A program made the position numbers and the translations under genes. Of a stretch of 64,000 bases of DNA, positions 4,490 to 13,394 are shown piece after piece. The stretch is from Microbacterium imperiale (GTDB lineage Bacteria; Actinomycetota; Actinomycetes; Actinomycetales; Microbacteriaceae). The stretch lies in the NCBI RefSeq assembly GCF_017876655.1, contig NZ_JAGIOK010000001.1, forward strand, positions 2,666,001 to 2,730,000, in the 5' to 3' direction. Within the stretch, counting starts at the first letter, position 1, and each line of letters opens with the position of its first letter. The notes under the pieces are model-generated. The model saw only the letters and a list, made by a program, of their open reading frames with translations, had not been told where the DNA came from and ran no database searches.

Positions 4490-4571
4490 GGCGAGTTACC
4501 CAAGCGGCCAAAGGGATCTGACTGTAAATCAGACTGCATTGCATTCGGGGGTTCGAATCCCTCACTCGCCA
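4490..4571 (+). tRNA. tRNA-Tyr (GTA)
   Basis: The 82-base class II tRNA has acceptor arms GGCGAGT and ACTCGCC with discriminator A at 4571. The anticodon stem TCTGA/TCAGA encloses the loop CTGTAAA, with anticodon GTA at 4524-4526. A long variable arm and the T-loop GTTCGAATC follow. CCA is not encoded. A strong terminator hairpin follows at once. Confidence 0.97.
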
Positions 4572-4578
4572 CTTTCGA

Positions 4579-4614
4579 AGAAGGGCCCCCGTTCAGCGGG
4601 GGCCCTTCTCGTTT
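4579..4614. terminator. Bidirectional rho-independent terminator between tRNA-Tyr and the lanthipeptide precursor gene
   Basis: A 13-bp stem (arms 4579-4591 and 4597-4609, core GGGCCCCC) closes a five-base loop and is followed by CGTTT on the plus strand. On the minus strand the arm is followed by TTCGAAAG. It can end both tRNA-Tyr transcripts and the converging lanthipeptide operon, whose last stop codon lies at 4637. Confidence 0.85.
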
Positions 4615-4636: not shown

Positions 4637-4753
4637 TCAGCAGAGCGTCGACACCGTGCTCCGGCAGATGCCGGAGCTCGCCGCACTGACCAGGATCGTT
4701 CGATGCTCGTCGTCGCTGTTCTCGAGCGTCTGCAGAGCCAGAATGAAGCCCAT
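4637..4753 (-). CDS. Class III lanthipeptide precursor peptide (LanA)
   Basis: A 38-residue ORF starts three bases after the lanKC stop codon (TGA-GGA-ATG), with GAGGGGG in the end of lanKC serving as ribosome site, so the two are translationally coupled. The leader MGFILALQTLE matches the class III pattern of a hydrophobic-x-LQ stretch near the N-terminus (compare the ramS, labyrinthopeptin and erythreapeptin leaders, from memory). The acidic segment NSDDEH follows, then a core from about residue 19 with two Ser-x2-Ser-xn-Cys motifs: Ser23/Ser26/Cys30 and Ser32/Ser35/Cys38. These are the substrates for labionin or lanthionine rings. Seen: the ORF, its spacing and motifs. Inferred: the leader/core boundary and ring pattern. 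Confidence 0.9.
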   Translation of the reverse strand: MGFILALQTLENSDDEHRTILVSAASSGICRSTVSTLC

Positions 4754-4756
4754 TCC

Positions 4757-7369
4757 TCACCCCCTCGGTTTCATCGCGCCGGATCGACCGGCGGGCTCGA
4801 GCACCGGGGGGAGCAGGAACGGCATGACAGAGCGGTCATCGCCGAAGCCGGATGCCGCGACGAGGGCGGCGAGCACGCCTGCCGAGCCCGTCGCGAGGTC
4901 GCACGACGCACGCACGAGGCCGTCGCCCGCGAATCGAGGGCCGGCCGGGCCGGGAAGCGCATGCAGCGGCATCCGTGACAGGTGATGTTCGAGCGCGCGA
5001 TCGGTGTCGGCGGTGGCGTGACCGGTGCTCTCGAGCGCCCGCAGGAAGAGCACGAGCCCCGCGCGACCCTGGAACAGTCCCGACTGCACGACGAAGGGGG
5101 CGGATGCCGCGGCCGCGATGCCGCCGAGGATCCGGCGAAGCGCGTCGTCGCCGGGCTCGTGCACGAGGTACTGCGCGAGGACGAGGCCGATGCCTGCCGA
5201 CCCATGCGCGAGGTAGGGCATCATCCGCCATCCCTCGTCGACCTGCAGGGCGCCGCTGTCGTCTCGCCTCAGGGAACGCAGATCGACCTCCAGTGCCCGG
5301 CGCACCGTGTCGAGGAAGCGCCTGTCACCGGTGCGCTCGTACACACGCAGAGCGAGGAGGGCGGTTCCCGTCGCCGCGCCCATGAGCCCGCCGCGGCCCC
5401 GCGCCACCGTCGTGGGCGGGTCGACCTTCCGCCAGTGATCGGCGAGCTGCTCGACGATCGTCACGGCGCGTTCGACGGCGTCGTCGTCGCCGACGCCGTG
5501 ATCTCCGGCGCCGTCGAGAAGAGCGAGGGCGATCCCGGGCAGTCCCGAGAACAGGTCCGGCCCCGAGCCGGACAGGTCGGCGCCACGCAGGCGCTCGCGG
5601 AGCCTCACCGCTTCGTCGAGCAGGCCCAGGCGTCGACATGCCCACAGCGCGCCGGCGGCGCCGTCCATCAGGCCCAGGCGTGCGGGGTGATCGTCGGTCG
5701 CCGCGAGCGCTCGTCGCATCCACTCCTCGAACGCCGGCGGGAGCGCGACCCCCGCCGCGTCGAGCGCGACGGCGACGCCCAGGGCCCCGTGGGCGAGTGC
5801 GAACGCCGGCTGGGAGAACTGCCGCGGATCGCCGGGCCACAGACGGTCGGGGCGTGCGGGCGTCGCATCGGCGATCAGCTGCGCGGCGATGCGCTGGGCG
5901 GATGCGGCCGGGTCGGGCTCCACGCCGCTGCGGGCGAGCATGCGGCGCGGAGCCGCCGATCCACGCCGCAGCTCGCCGGTGACCCGCGCTGCCCAAGAGT
6001 CGGGCAGGTCGAACACCGCCGCCGCCTCAGCGACGAGCTCCTTCGCTTTCGTCGGGGCCACGCCGAGCAACGGCGTCAGCGGAACGAAGACGTACAGCTC
6101 GATGGCTGCGCACGCGTACAGGTCACGCTTCACCGGATCCGTTTCGCCCGCCGCGGCGAATCCCACCGCCCCGAGCACGGCTTTCTCGCTCGCGTTCGTC
6201 GGCAGCGACATCTCGAGGTCGACAAGTCCCACAGACCCGTCCTCGCCGACGATCACGTTGGCGGGGTGCAGGTCGCCGTGGGTGCGTCCCGTCCCGTGCA
6301 GATTCGCCACTTCGGCCCGCAAAGAGCCGAGCACCCGCAGCATCCGATCGCGGTAGGCGTCGCGAGCCGCGCGCGACGAGACCGCCGCCAGCAGCGGGCT
6401 CGGCGACGCGACGAGCCGGTCGAGCGCGGAGCCGGGCAGCTTCTCGAGCGCGAGGAAGCGGTGGCCGTGCGCTTCGAACGTCGCGTGGACGGCGGGCACG
6501 CGCACGCGGTGCGACACGGCGCGCAGCGCGCCCTCCTCGTCACGCAGTCGGGCGACGGCATCCCGGCCATCGGCGGTCCAGCCCGCGAACGGTCGCGCCT
6601 CTTTGACGATGACCGGCGTGCCGTCGAGCACGCCCGTGTAGACGCCGCCGGCGTTCGAGTAGTGGAGCGCCCCGGTGATCTCGGGGAAGGCCGCCGGAGG
6701 GTCCGTGCCGAGCGCATCCAGCTGTCGCTGCAGGAAGGGCGGCAGCACCACCCACGGCGGTACGTGGAACCCCGCCTCGCGGCGGTCTGCGACCCAGCTA
6801 CCCGTTCGAGGGTCGCGCACCGCGGGCACCGGTCGTCCGTCGACGATCGCCTCCCGCGCGGTGAAGGCACCGTATCGGACGTACAGCGGGCCACGGTTCC
6901 ACCGCAGGTCCGACAGGATGTAGGGCCCGGGCTCGCCCCCGAGCACCGCATCGAGCGTCACGAGGCAGTGCTCGAGGGCGTCGAGCGAATCCGGGTACAG
7001 CGTGATGAACTTGCCGGCGCTCGAACGATCGGCGTCCTTGGCGAGCACGGCGTCGAGCGCGCGCTCGTCGCTCAGGTGCTTGAACGGCATGCCTGCCCGG
7101 TGGCAGTGCTCCGAGACGATCGCGAGCACGCGTCGGGCACGGCCGGGCAGCGCGCTGACGTGCACCTTCCAGCCCTGCTCGCCGAGGCGGTGCCCGTCGG
7201 GGATCCACACGAACCATGGATGCCGCCGCCTGCGGCGCCATGCGCCCCACGAGACCGAGGCAGACGGCGCGTACCGCCGCTGCGCGTCGCCGGTGTCGGC
7301 GGCATCCGCGGCGGGGGAGTCGTAGAACAGCGGATCCCGCGCCGCGAACCGTGCGTGAATCGGATCCAT
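4757..7369 (-). CDS. Class III lanthipeptide synthetase (LanKC)
   Basis: The 870-residue trifunctional enzyme should phosphorylate Ser/Thr of the precursor, eliminate phosphate and cyclise onto Cys. An N-terminal lyase-like region (about 60-220) contains GKFITLYPDS at 119-128. The kinase domain (about 235-480) has Lys256 in VIVKEARPF, the catalytic loop HGDLHPAN at 364-371 with Asp366 and Asn371, and DLE at 384-386 in place of DFG. A LanC-like cyclase follows (about 505-870), with glycine motifs such as AHGSAGIG and GLFQGRAG. The Cys and Cys-His-Gly zinc ligands of class IV LanL and LanC are absent, which points to class III. AGGGGGA precedes the ATG. The kinase and regulator genes lie upstream on the same strand. 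Confidence 0.93.
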   Translation of the reverse strand: MDPIHARFAARDPLFYDSPAADAADTGDAQRRYAPSASVSWGAWRRRRRHPWFVWIPDGHRLGEQGWKVHVSALPGRARRVLAIVSEHCHRAGMPFKHLSDERALDAVLAKDADRSSAGKFITLYPDSLDALEHCLVTLDAVLGGEPGPYILSDLRWNRGPLYVRYGAFTAREAIVDGRPVPAVRDPRTGSWVADRREAGFHVPPWVVLPPFLQRQLDALGTDPPAAFPEITGALHYSNAGGVYTGVLDGTPVIVKEARPFAGWTADGRDAVARLRDEEGALRAVSHRVRVPAVHATFEAHGHRFLALEKLPGSALDRLVASPSPLLAAVSSRAARDAYRDRMLRVLGSLRAEVANLHGTGRTHGDLHPANVIVGEDGSVGLVDLEMSLPTNASEKAVLGAVGFAAAGETDPVKRDLYACAAIELYVFVPLTPLLGVAPTKAKELVAEAAAVFDLPDSWAARVTGELRRGSAAPRRMLARSGVEPDPAASAQRIAAQLIADATPARPDRLWPGDPRQFSQPAFALAHGALGVAVALDAAGVALPPAFEEWMRRALAATDDHPARLGLMDGAAGALWACRRLGLLDEAVRLRERLRGADLSGSGPDLFSGLPGIALALLDGAGDHGVGDDDAVERAVTIVEQLADHWRKVDPPTTVARGRGGLMGAATGTALLALRVYERTGDRRFLDTVRRALEVDLRSLRRDDSGALQVDEGWRMMPYLAHGSAGIGLVLAQYLVHEPGDDALRRILGGIAAAASAPFVVQSGLFQGRAGLVLFLRALESTGHATADTDRALEHHLSRMPLHALPGPAGPRFAGDGLVRASCDLATGSAGVLAALVAASGFGDDRSVMPFLLPPVLEPAGRSGAMKPRG

Positions 7370-7533: not shown

Positions 7534-7551
7534 TTCATCCGAATGGATGAA
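7534..7551. promoter_or_regulatory. Operator-like palindrome TTCATCC-GAAT-GGATGAA
   Basis: Perfect 7-bp arms flank a GAAT spacer in the gap between the response regulator gene and lanKC. NarL/FixJ-type regulators bind short inverted repeats, and such a regulator is encoded ten bases away. A near copy lies at 13343-13358, and a site with the same CCGAATGG centre lies at 30840-30855. The role as operator is inferred. Confidence 0.65.
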
Positions 7552-7560
7552 GCGGGCGGG

Positions 7561-8229
7561 TCAGATCCGGTTGCGTGCTCCCCAGAGCGCGAGTTGGGTG
7601 CGGTCGGCGAGGTCGAGCTTCTTGAGCGCGGAGTGCAGTTGGGAGCGGACCGTGTGCACCGAGACCTGGAGCGTTTCGGCGATGCCCTCGTTGCTCGTGA
7701 CGCCCCCGGCGAGCACGGAGATCACGCGGCGCTCGGCGGATGTCAGCAGGGCGCTGCCTTCGGGGTCGGCGGGGACGCCGCCCCGGCGGACGAACTCGCG
7801 CAGGAGCGGAGCGGTCACCCGCGACGACACGAGTGCTTCACCGCGCGCGGCCGCGTAGATGGCGCCGACGAGCTGATCGGAGTCGTGGCTTTTGAGCAGG
7901 TACCCGACGGCGCCGGAGTCGAGCGCTTCGCTGACGTAGCCGTCGACGGCGTAGCTGGTCATCACGATGACGGCGATCGGAGGATGCCCGTCGTCGGGCC
8001 GGGCGAGCACGCGGGTGGCGGCCAAGCCCGACATCTGCGGCATCTGGATGTCCATCAGCACGACGTCGGCCCGTTCGGCCCGGGCGACGTGAACGGCGTC
8101 GACGCCGTTGGACACCTCCCCGGCCACGAGGATGCCGGGGGCTCCTTCGAGCTGCAGGCGCAGGCCACGGCGGACGGCACGATTGTCGTCGGCGATGAGG
8201 ACGCGGATGCGCTCGCTCGGACGATTCAT
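7561..8229 (-). CDS. Response regulator, NarL/LuxR family, of the lanthipeptide locus
   Basis: A 222-residue receiver/HTH protein. The acidic pocket is in LIADDN, the phospho-acceptor is Asp60 in VVLMDIQMP, and the switch Lys is in YLLKSHD. The C-terminal LuxR-type helix-turn-helix is SNEGIAETLQVSVHTVRSQL. The gene begins 13 bases after the sensor kinase gene (both on the minus strand) and lies directly upstream of lanKC. It is therefore the likely pathway-specific regulator, in the place occupied by RamR-type regulators in SapB-like clusters, although RamR itself is an orphan. Confidence 0.93.
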   Translation of the reverse strand: MNRPSERIRVLIADDNRAVRRGLRLQLEGAPGILVAGEVSNGVDAVHVARAERADVVLMDIQMPQMSGLAATRVLARPDDGHPPIAVIVMTSYAVDGYVSEALDSGAVGYLLKSHDSDQLVGAIYAAARGEALVSSRVTAPLLREFVRRGGVPADPEGSALLTSAERRVISVLAGGVTSNEGIAETLQVSVHTVRSQLHSALKKLDLADRTQLALWGARNRI

Positions 8230-8242
8230 GCCGTTCTCCTTG

Positions 8243-9517
8243 TCAGGCGACCGGGTCGATCGGGATCGCGATCCGCACGTCCCATCCGCCTGTCGGCGTC
8301 GGCCCTGCGAACAGTGTGCCTCGCAGCAGCTCGATGCGTTCGCGCATGCCGCGCAGTCCCCAGCCGAGGTCGAGGCCGGGAACGGGGGTCGAATCGCGCC
8401 CGGGCGCCTCGTTGCCGATCCGCACCACGAGATCGTCCGGACCGGCCGACACCGTGACGGTCACGGGAGCTCCCGGCGCGTGCTTGGCTGCGTTGGTGAG
8501 CGCTTCCTGCAGCGCACGGTACGCGGTGGTCGAGACGACGGCGGGCAGGTCGGTCACGGGACCGGACGCGGTGAACGACACCGGCATCCCGCGCTGCGAC
8601 CAGAACTCCACGAGCTCCGCCGCGCGGCGCAGGTCGCGCGTGGTCTCGGTGGGGGCGGTCGCGTCCGCATGCAGGTCGCTCAGGGCACCCGAGAGGCTCG
8701 CGGCGGCGAACCTGCCCTCGTTGCGCACCTCTCCCACCAGCCGAATCGCCTCTTCGGGCCGAGCGGGGGCGAGCGAGATCGCCGCGTCGGCGAGCGTCAC
8801 CAGGCCGGCGAGGTGCTGGCCGGCGACATCGTGCAGTTCCTGCGCGATGCGCGCACGCTCGCGTTCGCGTGCGTCGGTCACGCGCGCGTCGTGCTCCTGG
8901 CGGGCGAGCTCCGCCTGCTCGCGGGCGAGCGTGACCCGTCGCACCTGCGCTCCCCACCAGATACCGAGAGCCGTGGCGCCGAGCACGGGAGCTGTGAAGT
9001 TGAAGAACTGATTCGCCGTGTAGCTCACCGACTCGCCGAGATCGCCGACGTAGAACGCGGCCCAGACCACGAGGGTGCCCATGGCGACCACGACGACGAG
9101 AACGCCGCACACGATCGCCCAGGTCGGGGAGACGCGGCTCGCCAGCAGGAACTGTGCGAGCGCCACCACGAGATACATGCCCACGAGCCAGTTCGGGATG
9201 GCGAATGCGATGAGCAGCGCGAGGTACACCGCGACGGTCGCGGCGACGGCCGTCCGCGGCCACCGGTCGCTCAGCAGCAGCGCCGCGGCCTGCACGACGC
9301 ATCCGGCCGTGAGGGTGGCGAACAGCAGCGGCAGCGGAATCTCCCAGGGCCAGTCCTCGAAACCGTCGATCAGGGCCGTGATCGGAGTCGCCAGCACCTG
9401 CAGCGTCGTCATCACCGAGACGATCACGACGAAGATGGCCGCCGCGCGACGGGTGCGGAAGAAGGTCCGCGTGGCGGACGCGTCGAATCCGACGCCGGGT
9501 TCTCGGGGTGGTTTCAC
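8243..9517 (-). CDS. Sensor histidine kinase (NarL-type partner)
   Basis: The 424-residue membrane kinase has about five or six hydrophobic helices in the first 195 residues. A coiled linker (REQAELARQEHDARVTDARE) follows. The HisKA_3 dimerisation box ERARIAQELHDVAGQHL carries phospho-acceptor His229. The ATPase domain has the N-box ALQEALTNAAKHA and a G-box GWGLRGMRERIELLRG near the end. It is the first gene of the unit leading into the regulator, lanKC and the precursor gene. The signal is unknown. The start is a GTG at 9517, with GAGAGGA upstream. Confidence 0.92.
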   Translation of the reverse strand: MKPPREPGVGFDASATRTFFRTRRAAAIFVVIVSVMTTLQVLATPITALIDGFEDWPWEIPLPLLFATLTAGCVVQAAALLLSDRWPRTAVAATVAVYLALLIAFAIPNWLVGMYLVVALAQFLLASRVSPTWAIVCGVLVVVVAMGTLVVWAAFYVGDLGESVSYTANQFFNFTAPVLGATALGIWWGAQVRRVTLAREQAELARQEHDARVTDARERERARIAQELHDVAGQHLAGLVTLADAAISLAPARPEEAIRLVGEVRNEGRFAAASLSGALSDLHADATAPTETTRDLRRAAELVEFWSQRGMPVSFTASGPVTDLPAVVSTTAYRALQEALTNAAKHAPGAPVTVTVSAGPDDLVVRIGNEAPGRDSTPVPGLDLGWGLRGMRERIELLRGTLFAGPTPTGGWDVRIAIPIDPVA

Positions 9518-13050: not shown

Positions 13051-13076
13051 TTGCGGAGTGTGTTCCGGGCAAAGAG

Positions 13077-13107
13077 GCGCCCGGGGCCCCTCCAGAGCCC
13101 CGGGCGC
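13077..13107 (-). terminator. Strong hairpin, terminator-like on the minus strand
   Basis: Eleven-bp arms GCGCCCGGGGC and GCCCCGGGCGC flank a nine-base loop. On the minus strand the hairpin is followed by CTCTTTGCC, on the plus strand by no T-run, so it would end a leftward transcript coming from about 13340. Confidence 0.55.
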
Positions 13108-13342
13108 ATGTCGGGCGCGAGACGAGGACGATCTCACTCGCGGCCGCGGGTCGAGCAGGCCCGCCCTGCTCCCCAGCAGCGCTGGTGCGCACCCGACGCG
13201 ATCATTGTGCCGCTCGTGGCACGACGCGCCGTTGAGGGCGTTGGGCGGCGGGGTGACAACAAAATGCCTGGTCCGTAGGCAGTACCGTGGCGTTGGACGC
13301 GATGGGAGAGCGACCGACGAGGCCCAAAACGCCGCCGGGATT

Positions 13343-13358
13343 TCATCCGAACGGATGA
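13343..13358. promoter_or_regulatory. Operator-like palindrome TCATCC-GAAC-GGATGA
   Basis: A second copy of the palindrome found before lanKC. The two share TTTCATCCGAA-y-GGATGA with one differing base in the spacer. No regulated gene is evident on either side, the nearest being the P450 that converges on it. Confidence 0.55.
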
Positions 13359-13394
13359 CGCCGCGGTGCGGCATCCGTCATGCCCCCACAACAG

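Follow-up and report, generated by a model that had tools for sequence, protein, structure and literature searches.

Does the short open reading frame (ORF) behind a lanthionine synthetase gene in Microbacterium imperiale encode the substrate of that synthetase, and what governs the two genes? The ORF, which we call lanA, lies within a 64,000 nt stretch of the genome (contig NZ_JAGIOK010000001.1, positions 2,666,001-2,730,000; hereafter the window), on the minus strand, at the end of a row that runs HisKA_3 kinase, NarL/LuxR regulator, palindrome, lanKC, lanA. We consider it probable that lanA and lanKC form a functional pair for a class III lanthipeptide of SapB/AmfS type, controlled by the histidine kinase and response regulator (HK-RR) via the palindrome, with a product acting outside the cell. 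In what follows G numbers denote genomes and L numbers loci used for comparison.

lanA (4637-4753, minus strand) encodes the class III lanthipeptide precursor MGFILALQTLENSDDEHRTILVSAASSGICRSTVSTLC, recognised from its reading frame, its motifs, a profile match and its conservation. The coordinates, 38-codon length and leader MGFILALQTLE given in the original prediction all held, as did the serine and cysteine positions (23/26/30 and 32/35/38, the last cysteine being the C-terminus) and the three-base gap between the lanKC stop and lanA (4754-4756). The core has the layout S23xxS26xxxC30 - R31 - S32xxS35xxC38. As to the ribosome site that had also been claimed, GAGGGGGTGAGGA stands before the ATG and is plausible as such a site but not ideal. 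At the corresponding position AG238 and SMR1 carry GGAGGTGA.

The preceding gene, lanKC (4757-7369, minus strand), encodes a class III lanthionine synthetase of 870 residues with RamC_N lyase, kinase and LanC-like cyclase regions, matched by PF25816 (RamC_N), PF01636 (kinase-like) and PF05147 (LanC-like). LanKC scores 841 bits against the LanKC model NF038151 (cut-off 575; positions 3-832/833) and 309 against the class IV model NF038150 (LanL; cut-off 650). With a score above the curated cut-off, the class III identity proposed earlier is a firm assignment. The kinase motifs VIVKEARP, HGDLHPANV and VDLE are kept in alignment with the solved structure 8w7l; other relatives of solved structure include 8sam and SalKC (9ugq). 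LanKC provides the only PF05147 match in the whole genome. In its cyclase, read by eye, LAHGSAG and LFQG appear to stand where LanC has the Cys and Cys-His that bind zinc.

A frame of 38 codons that falls under curated cut-offs might be no gene at all, merely a chance frame behind lanKC, and its relatives bear directly on this. LanKC was matched (E 1e-30) in 15 of 149 sampled genus genomes and at nine loci of a named collection; L045 and L047 from that collection were not counted again beside G050 and G140. We took as a clade those LanKC proteins at least 41% identical to that of the window, which are found in 12 of the 15 genomes. This leaves out G026, G077, G113 and the second copies in G027 and G007, all at 33-37% identity, and the short ORFs of the left-out loci L013, L015 and L016 are not among the peptides compared here. 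A precursor follows lanKC in all 16 clade loci having sequence at that place (15 relatives and the window; the two G046 pieces stop at contig ends), so that the worry that the small ORF might not be conserved beside lanKC is answered by the relatives themselves. The 14 distinct precursors among the 16 were aligned. They have in common G2, L5, L7, Q8, L10, S23, S26 and C38, with C30, S32 and S35 nearly invariant, and every one carries G[FY]xLxLQ and two S-x2-S-x2/3-C motifs, separated by a one-residue linker in 13. Both ring motifs are maintained across 41-67% LanKC identity, and between the lanA of the window and those of four relatives dS is 0.38-0.77 against a dN of 0.16-0.18 (few sites and no significance test).

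A profile of 11 relatives' precursors, from which the window and its four closest relatives had been excluded, was run against the 933 segments of 25 residues or more that the six frames of the window yield. It returned the lanA ORF at E 1.9e-15 and the next-best segment at 0.2; a better precursor nearby was the other circumstance that could have undone the original prediction, and the family profile shows none in the window. Among ORFs of 25-80 residues, the window has one that combines the leader pattern with the double ring motif, whereas 30 dinucleotide shuffles of its 64 kb have none. When a leader is not required, the double motif is seen in four ORFs of the window and in four across all 30 shuffles together, so the ring motif alone is weaker evidence. 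Given the leave-out profile, which refutes it, and the conservation of the ORF at the same spot in relatives, a chance frame is practically out of the question.

By the published models the peptide of the window is a borderline case. It scores 19.5 against NF033212 (SapB/AmfS; curated cut-off 25) and 22.4 against PF19402 (RamS; cut-off 24.3). The precursor at the same locus in M. arborescens DSM 20754, AG238 and Yaish 1, identical in all three and 74% identical to that of the window, reaches 28.3 against NF033212, above the cut-off. Only this precursor, that of G140 and one from Nonomuraea pass a class III cut-off in NCBIfam among the ten peptides tried, which places most peptides of the lanA branch at the edge of the models. 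An LxLQ leader and two S-x2-S-xn-C motifs, the features of SapB/AmfS precursors, are present beside LanKC. Since its own score lies just under the cut-off and that of the 74% identical relative above it, lanA is by its sequence best described as a SapB/AmfS-type precursor, a new member of a large, common and known family, said to exceed 4,000 sequences (PMC13380574, excerpt). The absence of class III precursors from annotation is routine; some 55% were unannotated in a 2020 survey (PMC7268733, excerpt).

What LanKC would do with this peptide is suggested by the chemistry of the family. It would read the LxLQ leader as a helix, phosphorylate core serines and then eliminate the phosphate, and close two Ser/Ser/Cys rings one residue apart, as lanthionine plus dehydroalanine or as labionin. 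In ThurA1 a Val, two Leu and a Gln of the leader matter for processing (excerpt of PMC10604976), a requirement that fits the LxLQ conserved in the lanA precursors. The family chemistry predicts a two-ring product, with rings of either type. Depending on the class III peptide, the Sx2Sx3C motif ends up as lanthionine or as labionin (PMC7268733, excerpt), and labionin is hard to predict from the synthetase sequence (PMC13380574, excerpt). A core that begins at residue 19, 20, 21 or 22 and has lost four waters would have a calculated mass of 1895.96, 1794.91, 1681.83 or 1568.74 Da, respectively.

Set beside known systems, the locus most resembles SapB and AmfS (ram and amf, Streptomyces), with which it shares a LanKC (RamC) and a precursor of ~40 residues with two S-x2-S-xn-C motifs. 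The layout of the SapB ring motifs differs from that of lanA, whose motifs lie one residue apart, and the ram and amf clusters carry linked ABC transporter genes, unlike the lanA-lanKC module. The labyrinthopeptins (Actinomadura namibiensis) do, like lanA, have two S-x2-S-x3-C motifs separated by one residue; lanA differs in the second, which is S-x2-S-x2-C, and is without the extra Cys pair for a disulphide. The NarL-family regulator is a further likeness to ram, where RamR is of that family, and NF033212 is the nearest NCBIfam family; RamR, however, is listed as an orphan regulator in the part available of PMC9739842, whereas the regulator here is paired with its own kinase. Durhapeptin (Streptomyces durhamensis) likewise combines a SapB/AmfS-family precursor, a LanKC and two rings, but in the partial source its three-gene cluster includes a transporter gene, durT, and none was seen at the lanA locus. 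Microvionin and the lipolanthines, which PMC10604976 names (excerpt), come from the same genus (M. arborescens) and likewise use a class III synthetase, but no decarboxylase or polyketide synthase (PKS) gene, and no protease gene, was noticed among the lanA-lanKC neighbours read, with no systematic search made. Among the matches listed from the open-access literature, titles and the beginnings of abstracts gave no such class III lanthipeptide with a two-component system in Microbacterium; the one paper that matched a combined query in full concerned Clostridium.

Two of the more distant loci can be mentioned here. L035 (2356-17469, from G113) and L013 have another class III synthetase among genes resembling those of PKS and nonribosomal peptide synthetases (by eye), and two short SSxSxNCG-ended ORFs lie behind the L035 synthetase; L035 may be a lipolanthine cluster, again from this genus. 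At L037 (6852-12549) a more distant LanKC goes with a precursor of another kind, and nearby are an ABC-type ATPase gene and what looks by eye like its own regulator-like pair; class III loci outside the clade may therefore have sensor systems as well.

Two observations sit uneasily with a functional pair. No ABC-ATPase signature lies within the module in any of 13 loci scanned (in three of them one lies ~3-5 kb off; that of the window, at 421-1701, follows a sugar-type permease, by eye), and the linked ABC transporter genes of a ram/amf-type operon are thus missing. In G138 the scan found no lanA behind a truncated lanKC, a frame of 336 residues matching residues 3-325, with kinase and regulator kept beside it. 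Together with the absence of the pair from G059, this suggests easy loss, and the locus could be a decaying cluster without exporter and protease whose peptide is no longer produced. The intact frames, a dN below dS and the maintenance of both ring motifs over the 41-67% range of LanKC identity all argue otherwise, and actinobacterial class III clusters are usually without a protease anyway (PMC7268733 and PMC8960859, excerpts); we regard decay as very improbable. In the functional pair that we favour, leader removal and export would fall to enzymes encoded elsewhere; leader proteases can be unlinked (PMC8960859, excerpt). The peptide might also be a classical lantibiotic directed against competitors, and some class III products, NAI-112 among them, have weak antibacterial activity according to a partial source. 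The module of all 13 loci, however, lacks the signature of a linked ABC exporter or immunity transporter, and the members of the nearest curated family, SapB/AmfS, are described as morphogens (PMC13380574, excerpt). An antimicrobial role is in our judgement unlikely. The two-ring peptide would most likely work outside its producer, where we expect surface activity or signalling and not the action of a classical antibiotic.

If the pair is functional, what switches it on? Before lanKC lie genes for a NarL/LuxR-family response regulator (7561-8229, minus strand, 222 residues; PF00072, PF00196) and a HisKA_3-type sensor histidine kinase (8243-9517, minus strand, 424 residues; PF07730, PF02518), both kept beside lanKC in relatives. 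HK-RR adjoins lanKC or sits at most 3.7 kb away in all 17 judgeable places (the window, L022-L030, L032, L034, L036 and L041-L044; L031 and L033 break off where their contigs stop). The genes come in two orders: kinase-regulator-lanKC-lanA and, in L025, L032, L034 and L036, lanKC(-lanA)-kinase-regulator. L041, L043 and L044 have a gap of 3.4-3.7 kb between HK-RR and lanKC, with a surface protein gene and a second NarL-type regulator in it; in L044 (2408-5685) the surface protein has thioester and DUF5979 domains and, by eye, ends in LPATG, similar genes lie in L041 and L043, and L042 has a remnant. The distant LanKC loci L035, L037-L040, L046, L048 and L049 gave no kinase match at a 60-bit threshold; L040 has one regulator match, 29% identical. 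At E 1e-40 the kinase turns up in every one of the 12 clade genomes sampled, whereas in the whole sample of 149 it is in 25. Over 13 loci the LanKC and HK identities are correlated (r 0.976, reached in none of 5000 permutations), a figure that counts for less as a sign of joint function in that the permutation test leaves shared ancestry in and shared ancestry contributes to r.

The palindrome TTCATCCGAATGGATGAA (7534-7551, no strand assigned), which we read as the putative operator of the NarL-type regulator from a comparison of palindromes and a genome pattern scan, lies 164 bp ahead of lanKC, with 9 bp between it and the stop of RR. TTCATCC-N4-GGATGAA has no other perfect copy in the genome; two more copies have one mismatch. 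Strain AG238 also keeps the palindrome. Requiring at least 6/7 matching arm letters and a T-C-[AG]...C frame, we found it in 12 of 16 lanKC upstream regions, the window included, where shuffles give an expectation of 0.10, though the criterion was chosen after the sequences had been viewed and the loci are related, which tempers the count. It is missed in G081, G027 and G138, where weaker versions are visible, and in M. arborescens, where a surface protein gene remnant lies upstream. The arms vary by lineage (TTCATCC, CTCACTC, CTCATAC, CTCGTCC) yet stay self-complementary. They also vary with the regulator: His at a residue of the recognition helix goes with TCA on both arms in all 11 regulators entered with a site, to which G120 conforms by eye, and Asn or Tyr goes with TCG on at least one arm in six of seven, including the G020 regulator with an in-frame stop, the comparison being one of related proteins and not of independent events. 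The palindrome would hardly be a plain terminator of HK-RR: at L041, L043 and L044 it lies before lanKC with a divergent gene on its other side (the case is less clear at G059). A loose pattern, WTCRTCCNNNNGGAYGAW, was rejected as not specific, being present in 64 of 149 genomes, mostly without the HK-RR pair.

On these grounds we suggest that the sensor kinase, on some cue, would phosphorylate the NarL-type regulator, which would bind the palindrome before lanKC and turn on lanKC with the downstream lanA. HK-RR could instead be an independent neighbour of lanKC, the palindrome serving its own feedback or another regulator, and several observations pull in that direction and away from control of lanKC. 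No LanKC match is found in 13 of the 25 kinase-bearing genomes (neighbourhoods were fetched for 11 of the 13), and the palindrome stands behind RR without lanKC in G059, in G020 and in the second system of G084. In G059 the kinase, regulator and palindrome are present, as are a hairpin, the tRNA-Tyr and the gene after it, and nothing of lanKC-lanA separates them. The helix rule has an exception in the second regulator of G084 and a mixed site in G106 (by eye). Counted over the genus sample, the strict pattern occurs 8 times in the 25 genomes that have the kinase and 40 times in the 124 that do not, in both groups 0.32 per genome. Only the lineage of the window stands out, with 3 sites in the genome of the window and, at up to one mismatch, 5, 6 and 4 in three close relatives (control pattern 0). 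Before a transporter operon, too, there is a similar palindrome, whether or not the genome has the pair.

Since kinase-bearing genomes taken together show no excess of the strict palindrome, we have weighed control of lanKC by HK-RR lower, and an independent system higher, than we otherwise would; a single strict site elsewhere means little, given the same rate with and without the kinase, and several lone sites fall within unrelated genes. The strict pattern misses lineages with other arm spellings. Three lines of evidence nevertheless speak against independence: the linkage in 17 of 17 places in two gene orders, the palindrome 181-183 bp before lanKC in L041, L043 and L044 with RR 3.4-3.7 kb distant, and the covariation of helix and operator. 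An independent neighbour appears to us somewhat unlikely. That the kinase occurs without LanKC in 13 of 25 genomes, and the palindrome behind RR without lanKC, does mean that HK-RR does something else too. As a side observation, the G020 regulator of this kinase family (L060, 7756-8385) has its in-frame stop before the DNA-binding helix, and G020 has no LanKC match.

A more far-reaching possibility, which we put forward tentatively and rate as improbable, is that the mature lanthipeptide itself, or the change it would bring to the envelope, is what the kinase detects; lanKC-lanA and HK-RR would then form a circuit for peptide signalling in an actinobacterium that lacks aerial hyphae. Genomes that keep kinase and regulator without lanKC-lanA (G059 with its palindrome, G138 with its broken lanKC, and others) would then be listeners to the peptide of their neighbours. 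Microbacterium is not known to form aerial hyphae. SapB-type peptides are known as morphogens of filamentous Streptomyces, and a conserved family of this type in Microbacterium, linked to a full two-component system with a candidate operator in view, offers a compact, testable system for the role of such peptides outside development. The natural presence and absence of the pair gives producer, non-producer and perhaps listener species to compare, and the palindrome would be a direct handle on the timing of peptide production. The peptide itself belongs to a known kind; the part worth following is the kinase-regulator-operator module.

Elsewhere in the window, a second operator-like site with one mismatch (13342-13359, no strand assigned; lower confidence) has counterparts in G059, G149, G150 and G151. 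Downstream of it a conserved stretch with a strong hairpin (13076-13222, minus strand), also present in these four, is a candidate small RNA, again of lower confidence and proposed from comparison with relatives. No conserved frame was seen between the window and G059, which speaks for this reading over a coding gene behind the site. The stretch was matched only in G000 and G059 among the 149 genus genomes and in all three named close relatives searched; no Rfam family reached its gathering score for it.

The operator core also precedes a lipoprotein/ABC/MacB-type operon in G000 and three relatives; the lipoprotein occurs in 39 of 149 genus genomes. We considered whether this MacB-like exporter might belong to the regulon. 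In the 30 of the 39 genomes covered by our control, a site of at least 12/14 consensus letters was found in three of six with the kinase pair and four of 24 without. Elsewhere the operon has palindromes of varied spelling (L136 6669-6686; L164-L193), and the outer letters differ from those of the lanKC site. The skew goes the way that co-regulation would predict but is small, and in view of this, the other spellings and the differing outer letters, the control does not support an exporter in the regulon; the MacB-operon palindrome more likely serves another regulator.

Beyond lanA lie a GC-rich hairpin (4580-4609, no strand assigned), read by eye as the probable shared terminator of lanA and tRNA-Tyr, and the tRNA-Tyr itself (4490-4572, on the strand opposite to lanA); a similar hairpin follows lanA in L041. 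In that locus an Abi_2-family gene (PF07751; 8676-10231) lies between lanA and tRNA-Tyr, and beyond it comes a second copy (by eye) of ~145 bp that spans the lanA 3' end, its terminator and the outermost bases of the tRNA end. The insertion at the tRNA looks as though it had been brought by a mobile element.

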